Shown piece after piece: positions 2,535 through 20,289 of a DNA stretch of 21,385 nt; within the stretch, counting starts at the first letter, position 1; every line of letters starts with the position of its first letter. Origin of the DNA: a virus. A program made the position numbers and the translations under genes. The stretch covers positions 1 to 21,385 of IMG/VR virus record IMGVR_UViG_3300047369_000620; one strand, written 5' to 3'. The notes under the pieces were generated by a model. The model did no database searches. It saw only the letters and a list, made by a program, of their open reading frames with translations, and was not told the DNA's origin.

Positions 2535-2542
2535 GATAAATA
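2535..2542 (+). promoter_or_regulatory. Late promoter octamer GATAAATA
   Basis: GATAAATA followed by CATGT, 7 of 8 bases matching the T4 late consensus TATAAATA. By T4 geometry the start of transcription would be near 2548, giving a leader of about 140 nt for the fibre gene at 2688. It is intergenic and recurs in the same form upstream of other units in the window. Confidence 0.7.
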
Positions 2543-6972: not shown

Positions 6973-6980
6973 GATAAATA
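6973..6980 (+). promoter_or_regulatory. Late promoter octamer GATAAATA before the curli-like operon
   Basis: GATAAATA followed by CACTT, the same element as at 2535, placed directly after the terminator. The predicted transcript start is near 6986, about 60 nt before the first gene. No other promoter-like element is seen before 12050, so the overlapping genes 7045-12046 are probably one late transcript. Confidence 0.7.
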
Positions 6981-7341: not shown

Positions 7342-7637
7342 TGGATGTAGGACAACTGATTAATGATTACGGTTTTCCAGTTGTTATGGCAGTAGGGTTA
7401 GGTTACTTTATATTTTATATTTGGCGATTTATAGGCGAACACATTGATCCAGCATTAGCAGAAATGCACATAGCATTAATTAGAGTAATTGATAAAACTA
7501 GAATGCTTGATCAAGATATGATTCGCTTACAGCAAAAAGTTAATGTTGTTTTGGAATACAAAGCAAGACAACAAGTTTTAGAAGAGGCTAAACAAAAAGA
7601 AGCACTTCGTAAACAAGAGGAAATGGAGGAAGAATGA
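7341..7637 (+). CDS. Small membrane protein with coiled coil, holin-like architecture (B)
   Basis: 98 residues. The N-terminal hydrophobic segment (about residues 11-30, YGFPVVMAVGLGYFIFYIW) recalls the YGFP-plus-transmembrane start of small holin-like peptides of the YvrJ/BhlA type. The rest is a long charged helix ending in a Glu/Lys/Gln-rich tail (residues 70-98), which should form a cytoplasmic or periplasmic coiled coil. It overlaps the csgF-like gene by ATGA. Its similarity in length and pattern to the preceding protein suggests a gene duplication and a heteromeric pair. Function is not established. Position just before outer-membrane pore genes makes a role in envelope passage or lysis plausible, but this is inference. 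Confidence 0.75.
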   Translation: MDVGQLINDYGFPVVMAVGLGYFIFYIWRFIGEHIDPALAEMHIALIRVIDKTRMLDQDMIRLQQKVNVVLEYKARQQVLEEAKQKEALRKQEEMEEE

Positions 7638-8134
7638 AAAAAGTTACAGGAACACATTTAGGTATAATGGTAATGATAACATTTTTTGTAGGTCAATGTT
7701 ATGCGGATGAAATTAAGTTTAAATTTAAAAGTCCTAGTTTTAGTGGTCAAGGAACTGGTGCTCATTATTTAACAATTGAGAACCAAGAAAAATCACGTAG
7801 AGACAAGATAAAGGAAGATATAGAAGCCGCACTTGCCAGAGCAGAAAGGGAAAACGAAAACTCAACAATTAACAAGTTCATTAGAAATTTAGAGAGTAGA
7901 ATTTACAGTCAAATTTCTAAGGGCCTCGTTGATAGTATGTTTTGTGACCCAGCAACGGTTATAACATGTACAAACTCTGATGCCGGTAGTTTTGAAATAG
8001 AGGGCAACACAGTTACATACGTTAAAACAGTAAATGCGGATGGACTAGAAATAATTAAACTGACTATTGTAGATCCAGACGGTACTATTACTGAAATTGA
8101 AATACCAATTGGAATAGGTAATATAGGCGGGTAA
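7634..8134 (+). CDS. csgF: Curli assembly protein CsgF-like
   Basis: 166 residues with a signal peptide (cleavage likely after CYA, residue 24). The mature N-terminus, FKFKSPSFSGQGTGAHYL, matches the E. coli CsgF start (TFQFRNPNFGG), the part that plugs into the CsgG channel. A helix follows (INKFIRNLESRIYSQI, matching LDNFTQAIQSQI), then a C-terminal beta region ending in VDPDGTITEIEIPIG (matching VTDRKTGQTSTIQV). Between these lies a charged insertion not present in E. coli CsgF. CsgF forms the outer ring of the curli pore and couples secretion to nucleation. Its stop overlaps the csgG start (TAATG), keeping the F-G pairing. Two cysteines (CX7C) are unusual for the family. Start supported by AGGAGG-like bases just upstream. 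Confidence 0.85.
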   Translation: MKKVTGTHLGIMVMITFFVGQCYADEIKFKFKSPSFSGQGTGAHYLTIENQEKSRRDKIKEDIEAALARAERENENSTINKFIRNLESRIYSQISKGLVDSMFCDPATVITCTNSDAGSFEIEGNTVTYVKTVNADGLEIIKLTIVDPDGTITEIEIPIGIGNIGG

Positions 8135-9165
8135 TGAATTATAAAAACTTGATCTTGTTATTTGCAGGAACGGTGTTATTTACTGGTTGTGCCAGCATTT
8201 CAATTCCCGGTGATCAAGCATGTCAAACAGATTTTTTAGAATGTGTTGAAGAGCCAAAACAAGTTGAATTACCGACTTATAGAAAACTCAGATACTTACC
8301 ACCAAGCAAACAAATGCCAGTGGTAGCAGTATATAATTTTACAGACCAAACAGGACAAAGAAAAAGTCAAGACGGAGTTGCTAGTTTTAGTACAGCAGTT
8401 ACGCAAGACGCAAAAAGTTTATTAATAGACGCTCTTAAAGCCGCAGGTTCAGGAGATAATCCAAAAGGAACATGGTTTAGAGTTGTCGAAAGAGGACTTG
8501 GACTAGATCATTTAGTCAGAGAAAGGCAGATAGTACGAAGTACTCGATCTGAACAGGCCAAAGCGGAAGGTTTAGAAGAGTTCCAAGAACTACAGCCAAT
8601 GTTATTTGCTGGAATGATATTAGAAGGTGGTATTATAGGATACGACACTAATGTTGAAACAGGAGGTAACGGAGCAAGATATCTTGGTATTGGTACAACA
8701 AATCAATACCGTAGAGATAGTGTGACAGTATCATTAAGAGCCGTAAGCACACTCACGGGTGAGGTGATACTGAATGTACAGACATACAAAACCATTTTGA
8801 GTACTGGTCAAGCAGGTGATGTATTCCGATTTTTAGATATGGATACAAAATTGCTTGAATTGGAAAGTGGTATGACAGAAAACGAAAGTGTAACATTCGC
8901 AGTAAGATCAGCGATCGAAGCCGCGGTGTTATCCTTAATAGAGCAAGGTGACGAGAGAGGATACTGGAAGATTGTTTACCCTGACGATTGGGATGAAGTA
9001 GTAGCCGCACAAGAACAGGCATACTGGATGAAACTCAACTCAGAAAATCTTTTAACGGACGCGGAAAAAGTGGGCAACGTTAGTGATCCTGAGTCACAAC
9101 CTTTATGGAAGAAAATACTTCTTAAAGGTGAAACCAATATTGGAGATATAAAAAATGAAGACTAA
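8134..9165 (+). CDS. csgG: Curli secretion channel lipoprotein CsgG
   Basis: 343 residues. A lipoprotein signal ends at Cys19 (VLFTGC). The CsgG core is unmistakable: VAVYNFTDQTGQ, FSTAVTQDAKSLL, WFRVVERGLGLDHLVRER, GGIIGYDTNVETGGNGARY, LGIGTTNQYRRD, TYKTILS, VFRFLD and the final SAIEAAVLSLI...GYW. CsgG is the nonameric outer-membrane channel that exports curli subunits. Compared with E. coli the constriction loop keeps the Phe corresponding to Phe56, but Asn55 is replaced by Ser and Tyr51 by a polar residue, with a one-residue insertion. An N-terminal linker (about 25 residues, with a CX6C pair) and a C-terminal tail of about 55 residues are additional to the E. coli protein (277 residues). 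It overlaps the curlin gene by 11 bases. CsgG homologues are known from marine T4-like phages, as far as I recall. Confidence 0.95.
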   Translation: MNYKNLILLFAGTVLFTGCASISIPGDQACQTDFLECVEEPKQVELPTYRKLRYLPPSKQMPVVAVYNFTDQTGQRKSQDGVASFSTAVTQDAKSLLIDALKAAGSGDNPKGTWFRVVERGLGLDHLVRERQIVRSTRSEQAKAEGLEEFQELQPMLFAGMILEGGIIGYDTNVETGGNGARYLGIGTTNQYRRDSVTVSLRAVSTLTGEVILNVQTYKTILSTGQAGDVFRFLDMDTKLLELESGMTENESVTFAVRSAIEAAVLSLIEQGDERGYWKIVYPDDWDEVVAAQEQAYWMKLNSENLLTDAEKVGNVSDPESQPLWKKILLKGETNIGDIKNED

Positions 9166-9979
9166 GAATTTAATTAAGAATTTTGTAGTAAATGTCTTCG
9201 CTATTGTAGGGGTGTTGATAGCAAGTCCATCTCTTGGTGCTACAGATAACGAAGTGTTATTAGACCAAGAAGGTAATAACTTGATATTAACAATTTTACA
9301 AGCAGGTAGTGGAAACCAAGTTTCCGGCGATGCGAGTGCCGGATCTGACTTGATTGTAACAGGTGCCAGTTTAATAATTGACATCATACAAGACGGTGAT
9401 AGCAACAAACTATACGGTGATTTAATACTTGATGGAAACGGTTCAAGTGTATTAGATTTTTACCAATTAGGTGATAGCAACGTCTGGGATCTACAAATCG
9501 GCGCACAAGGAAATAGTGCTGACTATACAGACATGTTAGTAGACATACAAGGTGACAGCAACATATTTAATGTTGATATAGCCGGAAATGCTACAGCAGA
9601 AAGTTTAAACTTTGATTTAGTTATACTTGGAGATAGTAACGACTTCTCAACAAGTTTTACTAACAGCAAAGTTTGGGCGGCACAAGGACAAGGCGAATCT
9701 TGTGGCACAAACTGTACAGGGTCAAGTGCTATGGCAGGTATCGTAATCGATACAAGTTCCGTTGTGTGGAACATGGATATTGATGGCGGTAATAACGCCT
9801 TTGCTACTAAGCAAAGCGGTAATTCGGGTCATAGTTTAACAGTAGTGTTAGACGGTAGTAATGGGGACTTTCAATTTGTCCAGGATATGGCCGCAACGTG
9901 TAATCCAACCTGTGAAGGGATAATAGATGTAAACCTAGATAGCGAAAATGCGTCAGTTAGTATTAAGCAGACAGACTAA
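9155..9979 (+). CDS. Curlin-repeat secreted protein (CsgA/CsgB-like)
   Basis: 274 residues with a signal peptide (cleavage likely near SPSLGA, residue 29). The mature protein is low in charge variety and rich in Gly, Ser, Asn, Asp and Gln. It has irregular repeats built on LxxxQxGxxN and GDSNxxxxxI, for example LTILQAGSGNQ, IDIIQDGDSNK and LDFYQLGDSNV, the hallmark spacing of curlin repeats that form amyloid beta-strands. The end, ASVSIKQTD, resembles the CsgB end. No N22-type targeting peptide of CsgA is seen: repeats start directly after the signal peptide. Two CX3C pairs (GESCGTNC, ATCNPTC) are unlike cysteine-free E. coli CsgA. Directly following csgF and csgG, it is the likely export substrate. 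Which of the two curlins acts as nucleator cannot be told. Confidence 0.82.
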   Translation: MKTKNLIKNFVVNVFAIVGVLIASPSLGATDNEVLLDQEGNNLILTILQAGSGNQVSGDASAGSDLIVTGASLIIDIIQDGDSNKLYGDLILDGNGSSVLDFYQLGDSNVWDLQIGAQGNSADYTDMLVDIQGDSNIFNVDIAGNATAESLNFDLVILGDSNDFSTSFTNSKVWAAQGQGESCGTNCTGSSAMAGIVIDTSSVVWNMDIDGGNNAFATKQSGNSGHSLTVVLDGSNGDFQFVQDMAATCNPTCEGIIDVNLDSENASVSIKQTD

Positions 9980-11117
9980 CTGGTTAGCAGTATGTTTACT
10001 GTTATTAACATTCGAGAGTGCCGCTAATGAACCAATTGGCGGCATAATCGAACAAAGCGGAAAGGCAGGCAGTATAGTTCGCCTTTCAGGAGAAGAATTA
10101 AAAGCAAATTTGGAAGCCGATATAGTTAGTTACGATGAAGTAGAAACAGAAAACGGTAGACTTAAAATAGAATTTGTTGATAGTACACAGGTAAGTTTGA
10201 CAGAACACACATATATGGAGATAGACGAATACGTTTATGATCCAGACCCGAGCAAAAGTAAGATGGCTCTTAATTTTGTTCAAGGTACAGCAAGATTTGC
10301 CACAGGCGGATTAGGCTTAGTACCTAAAGAAAATATACAGATACAAACTCCTACTGCCAGTATTGGTATCAGGGGAACAGATTTTACTACTACAGTTGAC
10401 GAACTGGGTAGAAGTTTAGTTATATTGTTACCAGATGAAAACTGTGACGATAGGGTTAAACTTGAAGAAGGTTGTAGACCTTCAGGAAGTATTACAGTTA
10501 CAAACGACGGCGGAACCGTTGTACTAGATGAGGCATATCAGGCAGTTATGGTAAGCACATTTGAAACTAGTCCAACACAACCTGTCGTACTTGTTGATCT
10601 AGACTTAAACATGATTGATAACATGTTTATTGTTAGTAAGCCAGAAGAAATAGTAAAGGCAGAGGAAGAACAACAAGAGCAATTAAAAGGAGACGGTGGA
10701 CTGCTAGACTTTGACGGATTGGACGAAAATGCTATCGAGCAAGACGCATTAGCAGATACCACAGAAGATTTAGAATTTACAACATTAGATATAAATTTTT
10801 TAGATGTTGATTTTTTGAAAGACTTATTAGAAGTTATAGAAACTGAAGTCGATATATTAGCAGAAGATGGCGGTGACGGAGGCGGTAATAACAAACTAAT
10901 AGGCGCGGTGTTTGGTGCTAATCCAGATAACCAATTTAATATTATACCAGACTTAGACGGAAAAGTATTTTTCCTAAGACAGGCGAGTAATACAATTAGT
11001 ATTAAATTAACAAGAGGTTCACAAGCACAATTAGATATCAGAGATAGCGATATGGGAGATAATATTATATGTTTAAGCAGTTGTGAAAACATTATAATTA
11101 CTATTACACAAGAATGA
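9948..11117 (+). CDS. FecR-domain periplasmic or secreted protein
   Basis: 389 residues, with a start 32 bases inside the preceding gene and no strong ribosome site. A signal peptide (about residues 1-26, LAVCLLLLTFESAAN) is followed by a FecR domain: GKAGSIVRLSGE, then FVDSTQVSLTEHTYMEIDEY, LNFVQGTARFATGG and TPTASIGIRGTDF (to about residue 150). A strongly acidic, low-complexity region (about residues 230-315) follows, then a C-terminal beta-rich stretch ending IICLSSCENIIITITQE. That ending resembles the last residues of both flanking curlin-repeat proteins. In bacteria FecR domains are periplasmic sensors or surface modules, and FecR genes are often near CHASE2 adenylate cyclases, one of which is encoded at 14891. 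Its place between two curlin genes suggests co-export through CsgG or a role in fibre anchoring, which is inference. Confidence 0.85.
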   Translation: MRQLVLSRQTNWLAVCLLLLTFESAANEPIGGIIEQSGKAGSIVRLSGEELKANLEADIVSYDEVETENGRLKIEFVDSTQVSLTEHTYMEIDEYVYDPDPSKSKMALNFVQGTARFATGGLGLVPKENIQIQTPTASIGIRGTDFTTTVDELGRSLVILLPDENCDDRVKLEEGCRPSGSITVTNDGGTVVLDEAYQAVMVSTFETSPTQPVVLVDLDLNMIDNMFIVSKPEEIVKAEEEQQEQLKGDGGLLDFDGLDENAIEQDALADTTEDLEFTTLDINFLDVDFLKDLLEVIETEVDILAEDGGDGGGNNKLIGAVFGANPDNQFNIIPDLDGKVFFLRQASNTISIKLTRGSQAQLDIRDSDMGDNIICLSSCENIIITITQE

Positions 11118-12046
11118 ATTTAGACGAAAAATTAAAAAATATGAAACCAAAAGATACGCCCTTATTAGTATTAGGTTACATAATGCTAGGCATGATGTTG
11201 TTATTAAGTACAACAGCAAAAGCCGACGACCAAGAAATAATATTAGAACAAGCAGGTGATGATGTTATTATTCAAACAATTCAAGAAGGATATGATAATT
11301 TAATTAATGTAGACTTAGGAATTGTTAGTTCAGACTCCTCAAATAATATTTTTAGAGTATTACAAGACGGGTTCGATAATGAAGTAAACTTTAGTCTTGA
11401 CGGACAATCTAACGAGATAGCCATATTACAAGAAGGTAATAATCAATATATTGGTTATTCAAGTATATGGGGAGAAGGACACGACCAAGGTGGAGATATT
11501 GACGGTGATAGCAACACATTAAAATTATGGCAAAAATGTAGTTGGTCAAGTTGTAACGAAAATAAAATAGAATTTCACGTAGAAGGTGATAACAATGATG
11601 TCGAAGTTGCTCAAGGATGGTTCTTAGATAAAAACTCCAATAACGGTAATACTAACTGGAGTTATGACTACACTGAACCAGGTGGTAATTTAGTAAGAGT
11701 AGACATACACGGCGACAATAATGATTTTAAAGCAGGTCAAAAACAAGATAGTGCCAGTGTAAATCACAATATGTATGTAAACATATTTGGTGACGGTAAC
11801 GAAGTTTATGCTGGACAAATACAGAATGGAAGCAAAACATTAAACTTAAATATCTACAATGATAATAATGAAGTTTATATAAAACAAAGAAAAAATGGTG
11901 CTCATTCGGCAACTATAAATTTGTATGGAACTTATGGCACAGATTTATATTTAAACCAAGGACATAATTCAGTAGCACAAACATATTCAATAACACAAAC
12001 CTGTGTAACAGTAGGTGGATGTAGTATCTCAGTTACACAAGATTAA
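11114..12046 (+). CDS. Second curlin-repeat secreted protein (CsgA/CsgB-like)
   Basis: 310 residues overlapping the FecR gene by ATGA. A longer signal peptide with a charged N-region (KLKNMKPKD) and a hydrophobic core (about residues 18-33) ends near TAKA. Curlin-type repeats follow at once: IILEQAGDD, IQTIQEGYDN, FRVLQDGFDN, IAILQEGNNQ, and later units of the form GDNNDFKAGQKQ, GDGNEVYAGQIQ and DNNEVYIKQRKNG. The Gln and Asn spacing is that of amyloid strand-loop-strand repeats. Cysteine pairs occur in KCSWSSC and TCVTVGGC. The protein ends SISVTQD, comparable to the last residues of the two upstream proteins. It is the last gene of the operon; no terminator is seen before the sigma70-type promoter that starts four bases after the stop. 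Likely substrate of the CsgG/CsgF pore. Confidence 0.82.
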   Translation: MNLDEKLKNMKPKDTPLLVLGYIMLGMMLLLSTTAKADDQEIILEQAGDDVIIQTIQEGYDNLINVDLGIVSSDSSNNIFRVLQDGFDNEVNFSLDGQSNEIAILQEGNNQYIGYSSIWGEGHDQGGDIDGDSNTLKLWQKCSWSSCNENKIEFHVEGDNNDVEVAQGWFLDKNSNNGNTNWSYDYTEPGGNLVRVDIHGDNNDFKAGQKQDSASVNHNMYVNIFGDGNEVYAGQIQNGSKTLNLNIYNDNNEVYIKQRKNGAHSATINLYGTYGTDLYLNQGHNSVAQTYSITQTCVTVGGCSISVTQD

Positions 12047-12865: not shown

Positions 12866-12873
12866 GATAAATA
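12866..12873 (+). promoter_or_regulatory. Late promoter octamer GATAAATA before the lipoprotein gene
   Basis: GATAAATA in the short gap after the gene ending at 12859. Predicted start near 12879, about 50 nt before the lipoprotein ATG. Together with the terminator at 13377-13402 it defines a compact single-gene late unit. Confidence 0.65.
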
Positions 12874-12927
12874 TATTATGTTATAATAACAGATGGTTTT
12901 ATAACAATCTTATATATAGGAGAAGAT

Positions 12928-13248
12928 ATGAATATATTAAAATCTTTCTTCGTAGTTTTATGTTCAGCCGGTTTTGTAGGTTGCGCCTCAGTTGGAGGTG
13001 TTTGGAACGCAGGAACAGAAGTTGTCACAGGTACTGTTGATGCAGTAGTTGGCGGAGCGGCTACAATAACAACAGCAGTTGCTGATGATGTTGTATCTGT
13101 TGGAACTTTAGCAATTGATACAGCACAGACTGTGGTAGTTGCTGGAGCAGACCTTGGTAAAGGTGTTGTAAAAACAGTTTCTGATGAAGTCGACAGACAA
13201 ACAGACGAATTACAAGACGAGGACAAAGACGAACCAAAAAAGGATTAA
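12928..13248 (+). CDS. Small lipoprotein with candidate -1 frameshift site at its end
   Basis: 106 residues with a strong ribosome site (AGGAGAAG) ahead of the ATG. The signal peptide ends in a lipobox at Cys19 (GFVGC). The mature protein is an Ala/Val/Gly/Thr-rich repetitive helix or beta stretch (about residues 25-85: VVTGTVDAVVGGAA and similar) followed by a very acidic/basic tail (DELQDEDKDEPKKD). No family is recognised. The last codons contain the slippery heptamer A AAA AAG (13236-13242), a 6-nt spacer and a hairpin (13249-13269). A -1 shift would replace the last residue by 40 others and give a 145-residue protein ending in CKKNPKECE. The gene has its own late promoter and terminator. 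It could be an envelope or lysis-associated lipoprotein; this is not shown. Confidence 0.8.
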   Translation: MNILKSFFVVLCSAGFVGCASVGGVWNAGTEVVTGTVDAVVGGAATITTAVADDVVSVGTLAIDTAQTVVVAGADLGKGVVKTVSDEVDRQTDELQDEDKDEPKKD

Positions 13249-13376: not shown

Positions 13377-13402
13377 ACCCTCAAAGAGATTTGGGGGTTT
13401 TT
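13377..13402 (+). terminator. Rho-independent terminator after the lipoprotein unit
   Basis: The stem CCCTCAAA (13378-13385) pairs with TTTGGGGG (13390-13397) around a GAGA tetraloop, with one T-G pair, and is followed by TTTTT. It ends the unit started at the late promoter at 12866. Confidence 0.88.
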
Positions 13403-13422: not shown

Positions 13423-13430
13423 CATAAGTA
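13423..13430 (+). promoter_or_regulatory. Degenerate late promoter octamer CATAAGTA
   Basis: It matches NATAAATA except for one A to G change, lies just after a terminator, and ends five bases before the ATG at 13436. That spacing is identical to the octamers at 13920 and 20302 (minus strand), which is the main reason to believe it. Confidence 0.45.
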
Positions 13431-13435
13431 CAATT

Positions 13436-13918
13436 ATGAAGCAAATACTTTTATTACTACTAATGTTACCCTCAGCCATTATAGCACAAGAAAGTACATT
13501 AACAAAGTTTAATTTAGAATATAAGATGCCGATAGATTACAGATATTGCGATTCTAATCCTGTGGAATGTAGACCATTGCCAAGCAGGATACCAAAGTTT
13601 GATATCCAAGAAAGACCCGATAATAAAGAATGGGCAATGTTTTGGACATTACAAATACTAGATATCTATACAACATCTAAAGCATTAAAGTACGACTGTA
13701 TAAAAGAAATAAATCCATTGTTTACTGAAACTCCGAGTGACACAAGATTAGTATTAACTAAAACTATGTTACTTGCTCCTGGATTATTATCAAACGATTA
13801 TTACAAAGAGATTAGTACCAGAGAACTAGAAAATACTAATATTATGTACATGTTTGTAGTTTCTAATAATTATAGATTACTACACGATGCCAAACAAACC
13901 TGTAACAAAATAAGATAA
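13436..13918 (+). CDS. Predicted exported protein of unknown function (DUF5658-like motif)
   Basis: 160 residues with a signal peptide (residues 1-17, MKQILLLLLMLPSAIIA). The mature part has a YCDSNPVECRPLP segment (CX6C) and a region WTLQILDIYTTSKAL, then KEINPLF and TKTMLL. This resembles the D-x-x-TT...E-x-NPL pattern of small membrane proteins of the DUF5658 type, though the match is only a motif. Two more cysteines (YDCIKE, QTCNK) lie toward the C-terminus, giving four in all, consistent with disulfides in an oxidising compartment. There is no Shine-Dalgarno motif; a late-promoter-like octamer places the predicted +1 on the ATG. It stands alone between a terminator and the FNR operon. 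Function unknown. Confidence 0.72.
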   Translation: MKQILLLLLMLPSAIIAQESTLTKFNLEYKMPIDYRYCDSNPVECRPLPSRIPKFDIQERPDNKEWAMFWTLQILDIYTTSKALKYDCIKEINPLFTETPSDTRLVLTKTMLLAPGLLSNDYYKEISTRELENTNIMYMFVVSNNYRLLHDAKQTCNKIR

Positions 13919-13919
13919 A

Positions 13920-13927
13920 AATAAATA
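13920..13927 (+). promoter_or_regulatory. Late promoter octamer AATAAATA at the FNR start
   Basis: AATAAATA followed by CTTCT and then the GTG start at 13933. In T4 the octamer spans -13 to -6, so +1 would be the G of the start codon. It would drive the overlapping genes 13933-16795 as a leaderless transcript. Confidence 0.6.
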
Positions 13928-13932
13928 CTTCT

Positions 13933-14652
13933 GTGTTAAAAGAAAAAGTTATAGAAATCAAACACTATTCAGATAGACTATTCAGTTTTAAAACTACAAG
14001 AGACAAAAGTTTTAGATTTAAGAATGGCGAATTCTGTATGATTGGGTTAGACTTAGAACCTAAAAAGATAATGAGAGCATACAGTATTGTAAGTACAAAT
14101 TACAATGACTATTTAGAATTTTTAAGTATTAAAGTACCCGACGGACCACTGACAAGCAAATTACAGAATTTACAAATAGGAGACGAAGTATTAATTAATC
14201 CAAAAGTTACAGGCAGTTTAGTATGTGATTATCTGTATCCTAAGGATAATTTAATATTGTTAGCAACAGGAACAGGCGTTGCTCCTTTTATGAGCATTGT
14301 AAATGACCCAGCAACGTATGATAGATTTGGGTTTGTATACTTGTTTCATACCGTAAGAAACATCAACGAATTAACTTACATAGAATCGCTAAATACTATT
14401 GAAGAAGAATTACCATTTACATATATCCCAACTGTAACAAGAGAAGATTATGTAAGGCCTGGCCGTTTTTGGCAGTATGTTGAAGACTACTTACCAGGTG
14501 GGTTCCTCAAAGAAAGAGACGGCATAATGGTATGCGGTTCTCCTGAAATGAATAAAGAATGTCGTACTATGTTTAAAACACTAAATTGGCAAGAAGGCAA
14601 TACAGGTGAAATGGGCGACTTCATGTTAGAAAGAGCATTCGTAGATAAATGA
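13933..14652 (+). CDS. fpr: Ferredoxin/flavodoxin-NADP(+) reductase
   Basis: 239 residues, GTG start. It transfers electrons between NADPH and ferredoxin or flavodoxin using FAD. Family motifs are clear: the FAD-binding RAYSIVS (residues 48-54), the NADP-binding ATGTGVAPFMSI (residues 111-122), the CGSPEMN motif (about 200-206) and the bacterial-type C-terminus ERAFVDK, like the AFVEK end of Azotobacter and Rhodobacter enzymes. Length is slightly under the usual 255-275. It lacks a Shine-Dalgarno motif and starts five bases after a late promoter octamer. It overlaps the next gene by ATGA. No ferredoxin or flavodoxin gene lies in the window, so it probably uses a host partner or one encoded elsewhere. 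A phage copy could redirect host redox power to nucleotide reduction or other synthesis, which is inference. Confidence 0.92.
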   Translation: MLKEKVIEIKHYSDRLFSFKTTRDKSFRFKNGEFCMIGLDLEPKKIMRAYSIVSTNYNDYLEFLSIKVPDGPLTSKLQNLQIGDEVLINPKVTGSLVCDYLYPKDNLILLATGTGVAPFMSIVNDPATYDRFGFVYLFHTVRNINELTYIESLNTIEEELPFTYIPTVTREDYVRPGRFWQYVEDYLPGGFLKERDGIMVCGSPEMNKECRTMFKTLNWQEGNTGEMGDFMLERAFVDK

Positions 14653-14894
14653 GTTCACAGAAAATTATCGATGCCTTGCAAAAGGGCGTGATTACTATTG
14701 TATTTAAAAAAATTGGCACAGGTGAAATTCGCACAATGCCGTGTACACTAAACAATGACATATCAAAGCAAACATTACAAATAAAAAAATATTCTAGTCC
14801 AGATGCTGTAATATGCTGGGGACTAGATGTAGGAGCATGGCGTGATGTTAGAGTAGATACTATCATAGAATGGTACGAAGGATATCCCAAGTGA
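14649..14894 (+). CDS. DUF2693-like small phage protein
   Basis: 81 residues between the reductase and the cyclase, overlapping each by four bases (ATGA and GTGA). The pattern VITIVFKKIGTGEIRTMPCT, later CWGLDVGAWRDVRVDTIIEW, resembles phage proteins of the DUF2693 group (VxFxKxDGxxRxMxCTL and WDxxxxxWRxFRxDxI), a small predicted beta-barrel whose function is not known. Similar proteins are common in T4-like marine phages. The operon position reveals no role. A family search would settle the assignment. Confidence 0.7.
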   Translation: MSSQKIIDALQKGVITIVFKKIGTGEIRTMPCTLNNDISKQTLQIKKYSSPDAVICWGLDVGAWRDVRVDTIIEWYEGYPK

Positions 14895-16795
14895 AATGGT
14901 TGTATAGTGGCTATGCTGTAATAGTTTCAATTTTATTACTTACAGCACTTAAAGTAGCAGACCCTACGCCACTAGAGAATATACGAAATCAAACATTTGA
15001 TTCTTATCAGCAACTAGATGAAATTAAACAAAGCAATGACGTTGTTTTATTAAACTTCGGCGAAAATACTTTAGCAACATATGGTCAGTATCCTTTCCCT
15101 AGACAATACTATGCCCAACTAATTGTAGATGTTGCTAGTAAAAACTCGGGTGTACTAGGTTGGACATTAATGTTTCCAGAAGAAGATAGGTTTGGTGGCG
15201 ACGACAGTTTTGCTAGTATTCTAAATCAAAACTTAGTTAATGTACCTGGTGCTAGACGTAACCCGATAAATTATAATGTTCTTAGCCAAACACCAAGTAG
15301 CAAAGGTATTAAAACAAGTGGACCACATATAGGCACGGGTACAATTGGACCTGTTCCAGCAACAGACTTTTTACTTACATGGAAAAATCTAGTAACAAAT
15401 GTTCCTATGTTAGAAGTAGTATCAAACGGAAAAGGCGTTAATGCCTCCGCACCGCAACCAGATTTTGTAACAAGAACATACCCATTAGCAATAGGTGTAG
15501 AAAATAAAATATATCCTAGTTTTGCTATAGAGATGTTAAGGGTTAAAACTGGACAAAAAAGTTATAAAATTAAAACAAGCGAAATAGGTATACAAGAATT
15601 TATGGTTAAAGGGTTCGAACCTTTTGTAACACAACCTGACGGTACAGCATATATACGTTTTAATAATACATTCGAAGAAATAGAATACACAGGAGCAGAA
15701 AGCATACCAGACTTAGGCGGTAAACTAGTAATTGTAGGTGTTACAGCAGAGGGTATTGCTAACCCTGTACCTACTCCAAGAGGCAACCTCTATCCACAGC
15801 ATATACACGCACACATGCTACAAAATATGATTGATGGTACCAATATAACCCGTAACCAGTTATCGCCGCTTATAGAACTTCTGTGTGCGTTGTGTGGCAT
15901 GATTTTAATAGCCATCGCGGTGTATAGATTGCCTTTACTGTGGACAGCACCTATTTCACTGCTGATTTTAGGTGGAGAAGCATACGGTAGTGTGTGGCTA
16001 TATCAAAATAAATTACAATTAGTAGATGCTACTTTTCCTGTGATAAGTGGCTTTTTGATTTTCACACAATCAGCATTTAATAATTTCTACAAACAATACA
16101 AATTACGACAACAAATTAAAGGACAGTTTGGTACTTACATATCCCCGGACTATGTTGATATGTTAGTTAAAGATCCTAGTTTAATGAAACTAGGTGGCGA
16201 AAGAAAAGAAATGAGTTTCATGTTTGCTGACATAGTCGGCTTTACGCCCATATCAGAAAAGTACATGAAAGCAGATGACCCAGAAGGATTAGTAGAACTT
16301 ATAAACAGTTTCTTAGATAAAATGACAAAAATAGTTTTGAAGAACGGTGGTACAATAGACAAGTTCATGGGCGACTGTATAATGGCATTTTGGAACGCAC
16401 CTTTACCATGTGAAAATCATGCTGAGATGGCCGTTAAAACAGCGATAGAAATTGAACTACTTGGTGACGAACTAGAAAAAGAAATGGAAGAACGTGGCCT
16501 GCCAAGAGTGAAATTTGGTACAGGTGTAAATACTGGTACATGTATTGTTGGTAACATGGGTGCTGAAACAAGATTAGATTATAGTGTTGTAGGCGATGCT
16601 GTAAACTTAGGTGCTAGATTAGAAGCACAAACAAGAGCAGAAGATACACCAATTATTGTTTCTGAATATACATACTTACAATGTAGTGATATAGCATTTA
16701 GTAGCATAGGCGAAGTTACTGTAAAAGGTAAAGAAGAGCCTGTTAGAATGTATGCTCCATTGTTTGATGGTGCGGTTAGAAAACTTTACAAGTAA
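14891..16795 (+). CDS. Membrane adenylate cyclase with CHASE2 sensor domain
   Basis: 634 residues from GTG at 14891, which has GAAGGA eight bases upstream and a GTGA overlap; an ATG at 14870 would add seven residues but lacks a ribosome site. An N-terminal membrane segment (about 4-20) is followed by a periplasmic CHASE2 domain (about 25-320), three membrane segments (about 326-395) and a class III cyclase domain (about 430-620). All catalytic positions are present: metal-binding Asp in FADIVGFT (codon 16229) and in DKFMGD (codon 16373), adenine-selecting Lys (16361) and Asp in RLDYSVVGD (16577), and the transition-state Asn and Arg in VNLGARLE (16604 and 16616). It should therefore make cAMP from ATP in response to an envelope signal. 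It is co-transcribed with FNR under a late promoter. Such an enzyme is very unusual in a phage. The gene abuts the convergent gene at 16796 with no gap. Confidence 0.93.
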   Translation: MKWLYSGYAVIVSILLLTALKVADPTPLENIRNQTFDSYQQLDEIKQSNDVVLLNFGENTLATYGQYPFPRQYYAQLIVDVASKNSGVLGWTLMFPEEDRFGGDDSFASILNQNLVNVPGARRNPINYNVLSQTPSSKGIKTSGPHIGTGTIGPVPATDFLLTWKNLVTNVPMLEVVSNGKGVNASAPQPDFVTRTYPLAIGVENKIYPSFAIEMLRVKTGQKSYKIKTSEIGIQEFMVKGFEPFVTQPDGTAYIRFNNTFEEIEYTGAESIPDLGGKLVIVGVTAEGIANPVPTPRGNLYPQHIHAHMLQNMIDGTNITRNQLSPLIELLCALCGMILIAIAVYRLPLLWTAPISLLILGGEAYGSVWLYQNKLQLVDATFPVISGFLIFTQSAFNNFYKQYKLRQQIKGQFGTYISPDYVDMLVKDPSLMKLGGERKEMSFMFADIVGFTPISEKYMKADDPEGLVELINSFLDKMTKIVLKNGGTIDKFMGDCIMAFWNAPLPCENHAEMAVKTAIEIELLGDELEKEMEERGLPRVKFGTGVNTGTCIVGNMGAETRLDYSVVGDAVNLGARLEAQTRAEDTPIIVSEYTYLQCSDIAFSSIGEVTVKGKEEPVRMYAPLFDGAVRKLYK

Positions 16796-19215: not shown

Positions 19216-20289
19216 TTAATTATCCGTCTTAGGTTTAACAATTTTACTAACGTATGTTCTTTCATTAGTAGTTGATTTGTCTGTGTTAGTTGTTTGTGTG
19301 GTATTGTTAATAAACCCATCTAGGATTCTATTAGCACTAGAGAATATTTGTTTGCTATCATCAGCAACTTTAACCCAACGAGTACCTTGTTTTTTAAATA
19401 TTCTACTCGGAGTAAAGTCTGTTCTTAAGAAATAGTCACCGTCTGCTGATGCTAATGGGAATGATATGCCACTACCAAGTAGTGTAGCACCATTCGGAGC
19501 ACCATCAATTGTGCCTATAAACGGTTTGCCTTTGGCATTTTCGTCTACATACAAGTGAGCACCATCGGCATAATAAGGATCATTCGGTACTTCGTTTTCT
19601 GCTTGTTGTACAATAGCATCAGAAATATCAATTTCATCTTTGTATGTGCTAATGATGTTTCTTAGATCATCTTCTTCGTCACCATAACCAATAATATCTC
19701 TGTACTCTTGTGAGTCGGATATAGGTCCTAGTTTAACTCTCCACATGTGTGGCCACCAATTTGGATCAAATCCTTCTGACGGCCTACTGGCATCTGTAAC
19801 TACATAAAACCTATTTACAGCATCTTTTCTTTCGTCTAACAATAAGTCGTCACGTAGATGCGGTAATTCTATTACATCACCAGCCATTAATTTTCTGCCT
19901 ATAGTTTCTACCATAGTATCCATATGAAAACTCATAAAAAGAGTATCATTTGATAAAAACATTCCAAATTGTGTAAGATCAAAGTCGTTGTCGCCTACAT
20001 TGTAAGCACCACGTAATTCAAATATATCGTCGCTATACTTTCTGTCCCTATTTTCTAAGAATAAAACATCTTGTATAAACGTTTCGCCTGTTCTTTGATC
20101 ACCATCTGAACCGTAATTATTACCTTCCTGTGGTTTAGAAAAGTCGTTAGTGTCGCCCTGATCGTGTACACCTAAGTATTTGTGTACGTTTACACCAGTA
20201 CCGCCTGCGTATATATTTTCCGCCACGATACCGTCGATAAACTTATAATCGTTTCTTTTAACTGGGTTCCATAAACTTATTTTAGGCAT
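19216..20289 (-). CDS. 14: Neck protein, gp14-like
   Basis: 357 residues beginning MPKISLWNPVKRNDYKFIDG. Segments such as GGTGVNVHKYLG, QDVLFLENRDRKYSDDIFEL, FDLTQFGMFLSNDTLFMSFH, GDVIELPHLRDD and WWPHMWRVKLGPISDSQEY are typical of gp14-type neck proteins of marine T4-like phages. It lies immediately before gp15, the T4 order (14-15). In T4, gp13 and gp14 close the head and receive the tail. The C-terminal part contains IGTIDGAPNGATLLGSG and RWVKVADD, a small added domain. No gp13 lies directly upstream in this window. There is no Shine-Dalgarno motif: a late octamer ends five bases before the ATG. Identity rests on pattern memory and gene order rather than a computed alignment. Confidence 0.75.
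   Translation of the reverse strand: MPKISLWNPVKRNDYKFIDGIVAENIYAGGTGVNVHKYLGVHDQGDTNDFSKPQEGNNYGSDGDQRTGETFIQDVLFLENRDRKYSDDIFELRGAYNVGDNDFDLTQFGMFLSNDTLFMSFHMDTMVETIGRKLMAGDVIELPHLRDDLLLDERKDAVNRFYVVTDASRPSEGFDPNWWPHMWRVKLGPISDSQEYRDIIGYGDEEDDLRNIISTYKDEIDISDAIVQQAENEVPNDPYYADGAHLYVDENAKGKPFIGTIDGAPNGATLLGSGISFPLASADGDYFLRTDFTPSRIFKKQGTRWVKVADDSKQIFSSANRILDGFINNTTQTTNTDKSTTNERTYVSKIVKPKTDN

Follow-up and report, generated by a model that had tools for sequence, protein, structure and literature searches.

Phage late promoters placed directly before start codons predict leaderless late mRNAs in marine phages of the T4 superfamily

The window, the whole stretch of DNA analysed here, is a 21-kb fragment (21,385 nucleotides) of a phage of the T4 superfamily. 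Its genes encode a T4 gp15-like tail sheath stabiliser, a virion structural protein and tail fibres, and it also carries a curli-type operon with CsgF and CsgG and a gene for a CHASE2-guanylate cyclase. The structural proteins are matched at 35-46% identity in the jumbo phages PA5oct, Atu_ph07 and Phosso. IMG/VR holds many contigs that are far closer to the window than these three phages, and one of them has 250,519 bases (G001). A search of the phage collection for DNA similar to the window found none, and related contigs and genomes were therefore used for comparison. The curli-type operon (7634-12046) comprises CsgF and CsgG, both recognised by Pfam, and a FecR-domain protein. Two of its proteins (9155-9979 and 11114-12046) contain repeats that appear curlin-like by eye, and they match no Pfam family. 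In a survey of pelagimyophages CsgF/CsgG were reportedly found, and CsgA/CsgB were not.

Three genes of the window start exactly 5 nt after a late-promoter-like octamer, two on the plus strand and one on the minus strand (Table 1), and this arrangement, which had been proposed in the original prediction, is read directly in the sequence in all three cases. The late promoter octamer of T4 occupies positions -13 to -6 (PMC2988020); the geometry on which the prediction relied is thus correct, and it places +1 on the first base of each of the three start codons. AATAAATA and GATAAATA differ from the T4 consensus TATAAATA only at position -13, while CATAAGTA differs at two positions. As had also been claimed, a Shine-Dalgarno (SD)-like motif is absent from the three starts, but this is not independent evidence by itself, because an octamer at -13 to -6 fills the SD position. 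Defining d as the number of nucleotides between the end of the late box and the start codon, ATAARTA is found at exactly d = 5 before 3 genes of the window; 5000 random shifts gave 0.02 such genes on average and never more than 2. Overall, the heptamer is not enriched (11 matches versus 18.8 expected from shuffles), so that the signal is positional and the raw octamer count was dropped as evidence.

Table 1. Late-promoter-like octamers, predicted leaderless-mRNA genes and a terminator in the window
Feature	Position	Strand	Description
Late promoter octamer GATAAATA, long leader	2535-2542	+	AGGAGA 2674-2679, ATG 2688 (tail fibre gene)
Late promoter octamer GATAAATA	6973-6980	+	ATG 7045 lies about 64 nt downstream and opens the curli-like operon; no clear SD
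Late promoter octamer GATAAATA, long leader	12866-12873	+	AGGAG 12918-12922, ATG 12928 (lipoprotein-like gene)
Intrinsic terminator	13377-13402	+	adjoins 13423 promoter on upstream side; hairpin -11.9 kcal/mol, z -2.8, then TTTTT
Late-promoter-like octamer CATAAGTA	13423-13430	+	spacer CAATT, then ATG 13436; weakest of the three
Predicted leaderless-mRNA gene	13436-13918	+	small protein; signal-peptide-like N-terminal stretch MKQILLLLLMLPSAIIAQ; weak DUF5658 match
Late promoter octamer AATAAATA	13920-13927	+	spacer CTTCT, then GTG 13933
Predicted leaderless-mRNA gene	13933-14652	+	FAD/NAD(P) oxidoreductase, ferredoxin-NADP reductase-like; Pfam PF00175, PF00970
Late promoter octamer GATAAATA	20302-20295	-	spacer CAGTT, then ATG 20289-20287
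Predicted leaderless late mRNA gene	19216-20289	-	virion structural protein; phrog_11591, E 5e-90

The three fused sites are conserved among orthologs to different degrees. For the virion structural protein gene at 20289, the octamer lies at d = 5 in 25 of 61 orthologs and at d = 7 in another 7, and an SD motif is absent from all of these (32/32); a further 25 of the 61 have a long leader, with an SD in every case (25/25). Orthologs at d = 7 would carry a leader of 2 nt and are counted against a strictly leaderless reading. On the tree of these orthologs, the label leaderless or leader switches twice. PA5oct, in which the protein was detected by MS, is sister to the leaderless clade and has a leader with an SD.

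The oxidoreductase gene at 13933 starts with GTG, and several of its orthologs start with ATG. Among 16 distinct upstream regions, ATAARTA is located at 5 nt in seven and at 4 nt in two, and several other orthologs have a TTAAATA variant at 5 nt. In E. coli-like systems, GTG would work poorly as the start of a leaderless mRNA (PMC9031893), which counts against a leaderless message for this gene. Further downstream, the window encodes a protein with a CHASE2 and a guanylate/adenylate cyclase domain (14870-16795), of which HTVC008M and related contigs carry orthologs; its true start is probably a few codons downstream, at the end of the upstream gene. The orthologs of this gene alternate between a promoter at d = 5 (15/25) and an arrangement, seen in the window and others, in which there is no octamer and the gene is closely coupled to its upstream neighbour, beginning near the end of it.

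At 13436, the start codon is supported by the hydrophobic N-terminus that directly follows MKQ, and a good terminator just upstream of 13423 means that this gene would need its own promoter. Only three of 12 upstream regions of its orthologs have ATAARTA, at 8-9 nt before the start, and most have none. As CATAAGTA is also two positions off the usual GATAAATA, the site at 13423 is the least supported of the three.

Octamers with a longer leader had been said to precede genes with an SD. This holds for the octamers at 2535 and 12866 (AGGAG); a further copy of GATAAATA at 6973, which the prediction did not mention, precedes a gene that has no clear SD. Orthologs of the 7045 gene have octamers 54-62 nt before the start, and those of the 12928 gene retain the octamer 46-72 nt upstream together with AAGGAG. 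The leader at 12866-12930 is kept in relatives (GATGGTTTTATAACA...CTTATATATAAGGAGA); its SD adjoins a palindrome, and near the predicted +1 there is a tiny ORF (ATG TTA TAA), so that a regulated leader is possible.

The distance between octamer and start was then counted beyond the window. At 106 loci, 82 of 330 distinct ATAAATA sites are followed at exactly 5 nt by a reading frame of at least 60 codons beginning with ATG or GTG, and control heptamers gave nothing comparable. Because these loci are redundant, whole genomes were counted next. G001 has 27 ATAAATA sites at d = 5 compared with about one at each other distance, its relatives G004 and G002 have 8 and 6, and the window has 2 for ATAAATA only. 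The SAR11 phages HTVC008M and Mosig have 8 and 6, respectively, and single sites occur in P-SSM2 and Atu_ph07 (400 kb examined). The isolated phages SCTP-2 (340 kb examined; six genes) and PA5oct (three genes) also have a few late boxes at d = 5. No site at this distance was found in T4, KVP40 (240 kb), Syn9, 121Q (160 kb) or Phosso (140 kb), and thus the fusion is limited to some phages of the T4 superfamily. Other distances in the marine genomes, which serve as a local control, average 0.3-1.1 sites each. The histogram is therefore not flat: the sites of the relatives of the window and of the two SAR11 phages peak sharply at d = 5. In T4, the peak lies at 21-30 nt. In the marine phages the distribution has two humps, one at d = 5 with a slight shoulder at 6-8 nt and, after almost nothing at 9-13 nt, one of long leaders, usually with an SD.

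The d = 5 starts comprise 55 ATG and 2 GTG codons, and in several ocean phages the fusion affects roughly 3 to 13% of all genes. In HTVC008M, seven of the eight starts were compared with GenBank and all seven are annotated starts; the genes include CsgF, the tape measure, the gp2 DNA end protector, the tail tube cap and a baseplate wedge protein. Those of G001 include the terminase large subunit, a head-tail adaptor and a baseplate wedge protein. In about 17 of 55 genes, the octamer or spacer overlaps the upstream stop codon, and such proximity makes coupled translation from a read-through mRNA possible as well; for 20 of 55, no gene on the same strand ends in the 60 nt upstream. A minor class has the box 8 nt before ATG (HTVC008M 59714 and 109429; Mosig 89375), with a predicted leader of 3 nt (ATT or GTT).

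Splitting the distances by SD gave the contrast that the original prediction implied. An SD of at least 4 bases was present in 6 of 55 genes at d = 5 (pooled from G001, G004, G002, HTVC008M and the window) and in 44 of 54 genes with the box 14-53 nt upstream (from the same genomes except the window; Fisher p 2e-14), although this reciprocal loss is partly forced, because a box at -13 to -6 rules out a normal SD by position. The informative part is the near-empty range of intermediate distances, at which an SD would not fit and the message would no longer be leaderless. The position of +1 is independently indicated by 83 long-leader promoters of the same phages that have no ATG at d = 5. Here, the sixth base after the box (+1) is A in 55/83 and C in 0/83, and the fifth base (-1) is T in 46/83. 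The A of a fused start codon would thus sit on the usual initiating base.

The same data bear on the possibility that ATAAATA at -12 to -6 functions in translation and not as a promoter, namely as an A/U-rich site for the ribosome or S1 that replaces the SD in mRNAs with ordinary leaders made from promoters further upstream. The heptamer does lie where an SD would be, and these genes have no such motif. Nevertheless, it is not a degenerate A/U sequence but a strict heptamer that matches the T4 late box exactly, and it is also present 14-60 nt upstream of SD genes, again with a preference for G at -13 and with T(-1)A(+1). The 20 genes that have no same-strand gene end nearby also argue against this explanation, which we regard as improbable.

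Slightly less probable still is that the boxes are -10 elements (TATAAA-like) of the host sigma-70, which would produce leaderless early or middle mRNAs as in many bacteria. Bacterial leaderless genes have their -10 box some 12 bp upstream of the start codon (PMC3160421), and G001 has five TATAAT at d = 6. However, ATAAATA is strict, and across 57 aligned sites the information content is near 0 from -40 to -20, i.e., no -35 element, and no extended -10 or TG signal was seen at the aligned late-box sites, where the first base of the box (-13) is mostly G. The genes are largely morphogenesis genes and gp55 is encoded. Furthermore, 893 kb of SAR11 sequence (120 stretches), which may not represent the host of the window phage, showed no leaderless peak for TATAAT or ATAAATA, and a host-wide leaderless signature was dropped as a candidate. 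Finally, chance or artefact from AT-rich intergenic sequence, stop-codon overlap or miscalled starts could still fit 13423 and draws on the low GC and the 17/55 overlaps, but it is refuted overall and very improbable given the shifted controls, the control heptamers, T4 and cyanophage controls of similar GC, the agreement with annotated starts and the conservation of the N-terminal start in orthologs that use an SD.

The machinery for late transcription was searched in the same genomes. A member of the gp55 family (phrog_234) is present in G001 (1e-23), G002 and HTVC008M; gene 55 is absent from the 21-kb window, which is too short to contain it. The family of the T4 gp45 clamp (phrog_223) is present in HTVC008M, T4 and Syn9 and was not found in G001, G002 and G004. 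A divergent clamp is possible, and the activation step in these three may differ from that of T4. IF1 or IF3 was not encoded in any of seven phages and was dropped as an aid to leaderless translation, as was peptide deformylase as a general partner, which among the phages checked is found only in Mosig.

We consider it highly probable that gp55-type late promoters fused to start codons give rise to leaderless late mRNAs in marine phages of the T4 superfamily. In such genes, the octamer (mostly GATAAATA, AATAAATA or TATAAATA) would occupy -13 to -6, and the phage-modified host RNA polymerase would initiate at the A of ATG or, rarely, at the G of GTG. The late mRNA would have neither a leader nor an SD motif, and its translation would begin at the AUG that forms its 5' end, presumably on 70S ribosomes of the host, whose initiation at leaderless mRNAs has been reviewed (PMC9031893). 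Alongside these, the phages have late promoters of another class, whose leader is at least about 10 nt long and carries an SD. We infer the use of the octamer by gp55-RNA polymerase, the coincidence of +1 with the start codon and initiation by 70S ribosomes from sequence comparison. The d = 5 peak, the SD split and T(-1)A(+1) support the leaderless late mRNAs of the original prediction, and the transcripts remain predicted. More broadly, and with somewhat better than even probability, marine T4-superfamily phages, including those of SAR11, may have a two-mode late programme, in which part of the morphogenesis genes are leaderless, with the gp55 promoter fused to the start, and the rest have SD leaders. 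Promoter spacing would then also decide how translation is initiated and perhaps how much protein is made.

Late transcription of T4 is a textbook system in which the late box lies a leader's length from the gene. If the proposed fusion is correct, T4-type phages would also have a class of leaderless late mRNAs, and the fused box would provide a simple rule for identifying late genes and their true start codons in such ocean phages. It may also help to explain why late-promoter prediction was unsuccessful in a survey of pelagimyophages (PMC7029224). Fused late genes would be a direct test of leaderless-message translation in SAR11-type hosts, and the d = 5 boxes of PA5oct would make such work possible in the laboratory with Pseudomonas. 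Leaderless late mRNAs made from T4-type promoters or in pelagiphages were not reported in the literature covered, which was incomplete and leaves novelty unproven; the one pelagiphage transcriptome study found there dealt with two other phages (HTVC022P, HTVC027P), and neither promoters nor transcription start sites came up in a word search of it.

The proposed arrangement resembles three known systems. In the leaderless genes of Mycobacterium, Deinococcus and other bacteria, a box (TANNNT about 12 bp before the start) likewise makes the start codon +1 (PMC3160421), but it serves the main sigma factor of the host, whereas here a phage late box is used and the sampled SAR11 sequence has no comparable signature. 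The Thermus phage phiYS40 is likewise a lytic phage with leaderless mRNAs for a temporal class, in its case the middle and late mRNAs (PMC3594737); for this phage, the review points to changed levels of host IF2/IF3 and describes no gp55-type promoter. The T4 late promoters (TATAAATA, gp55/gp33/gp45) have the same box, the spacing to +1 assumed here and no -35 element, and relatives of the window encode the gp55 family. Different from the marine phages, the first base of the T4 box is T instead of mostly G, and most T4 boxes precede a gene with an SD leader by 21-30 nt and none by 5 nt, while in the phages described here +1 would be the start codon itself.
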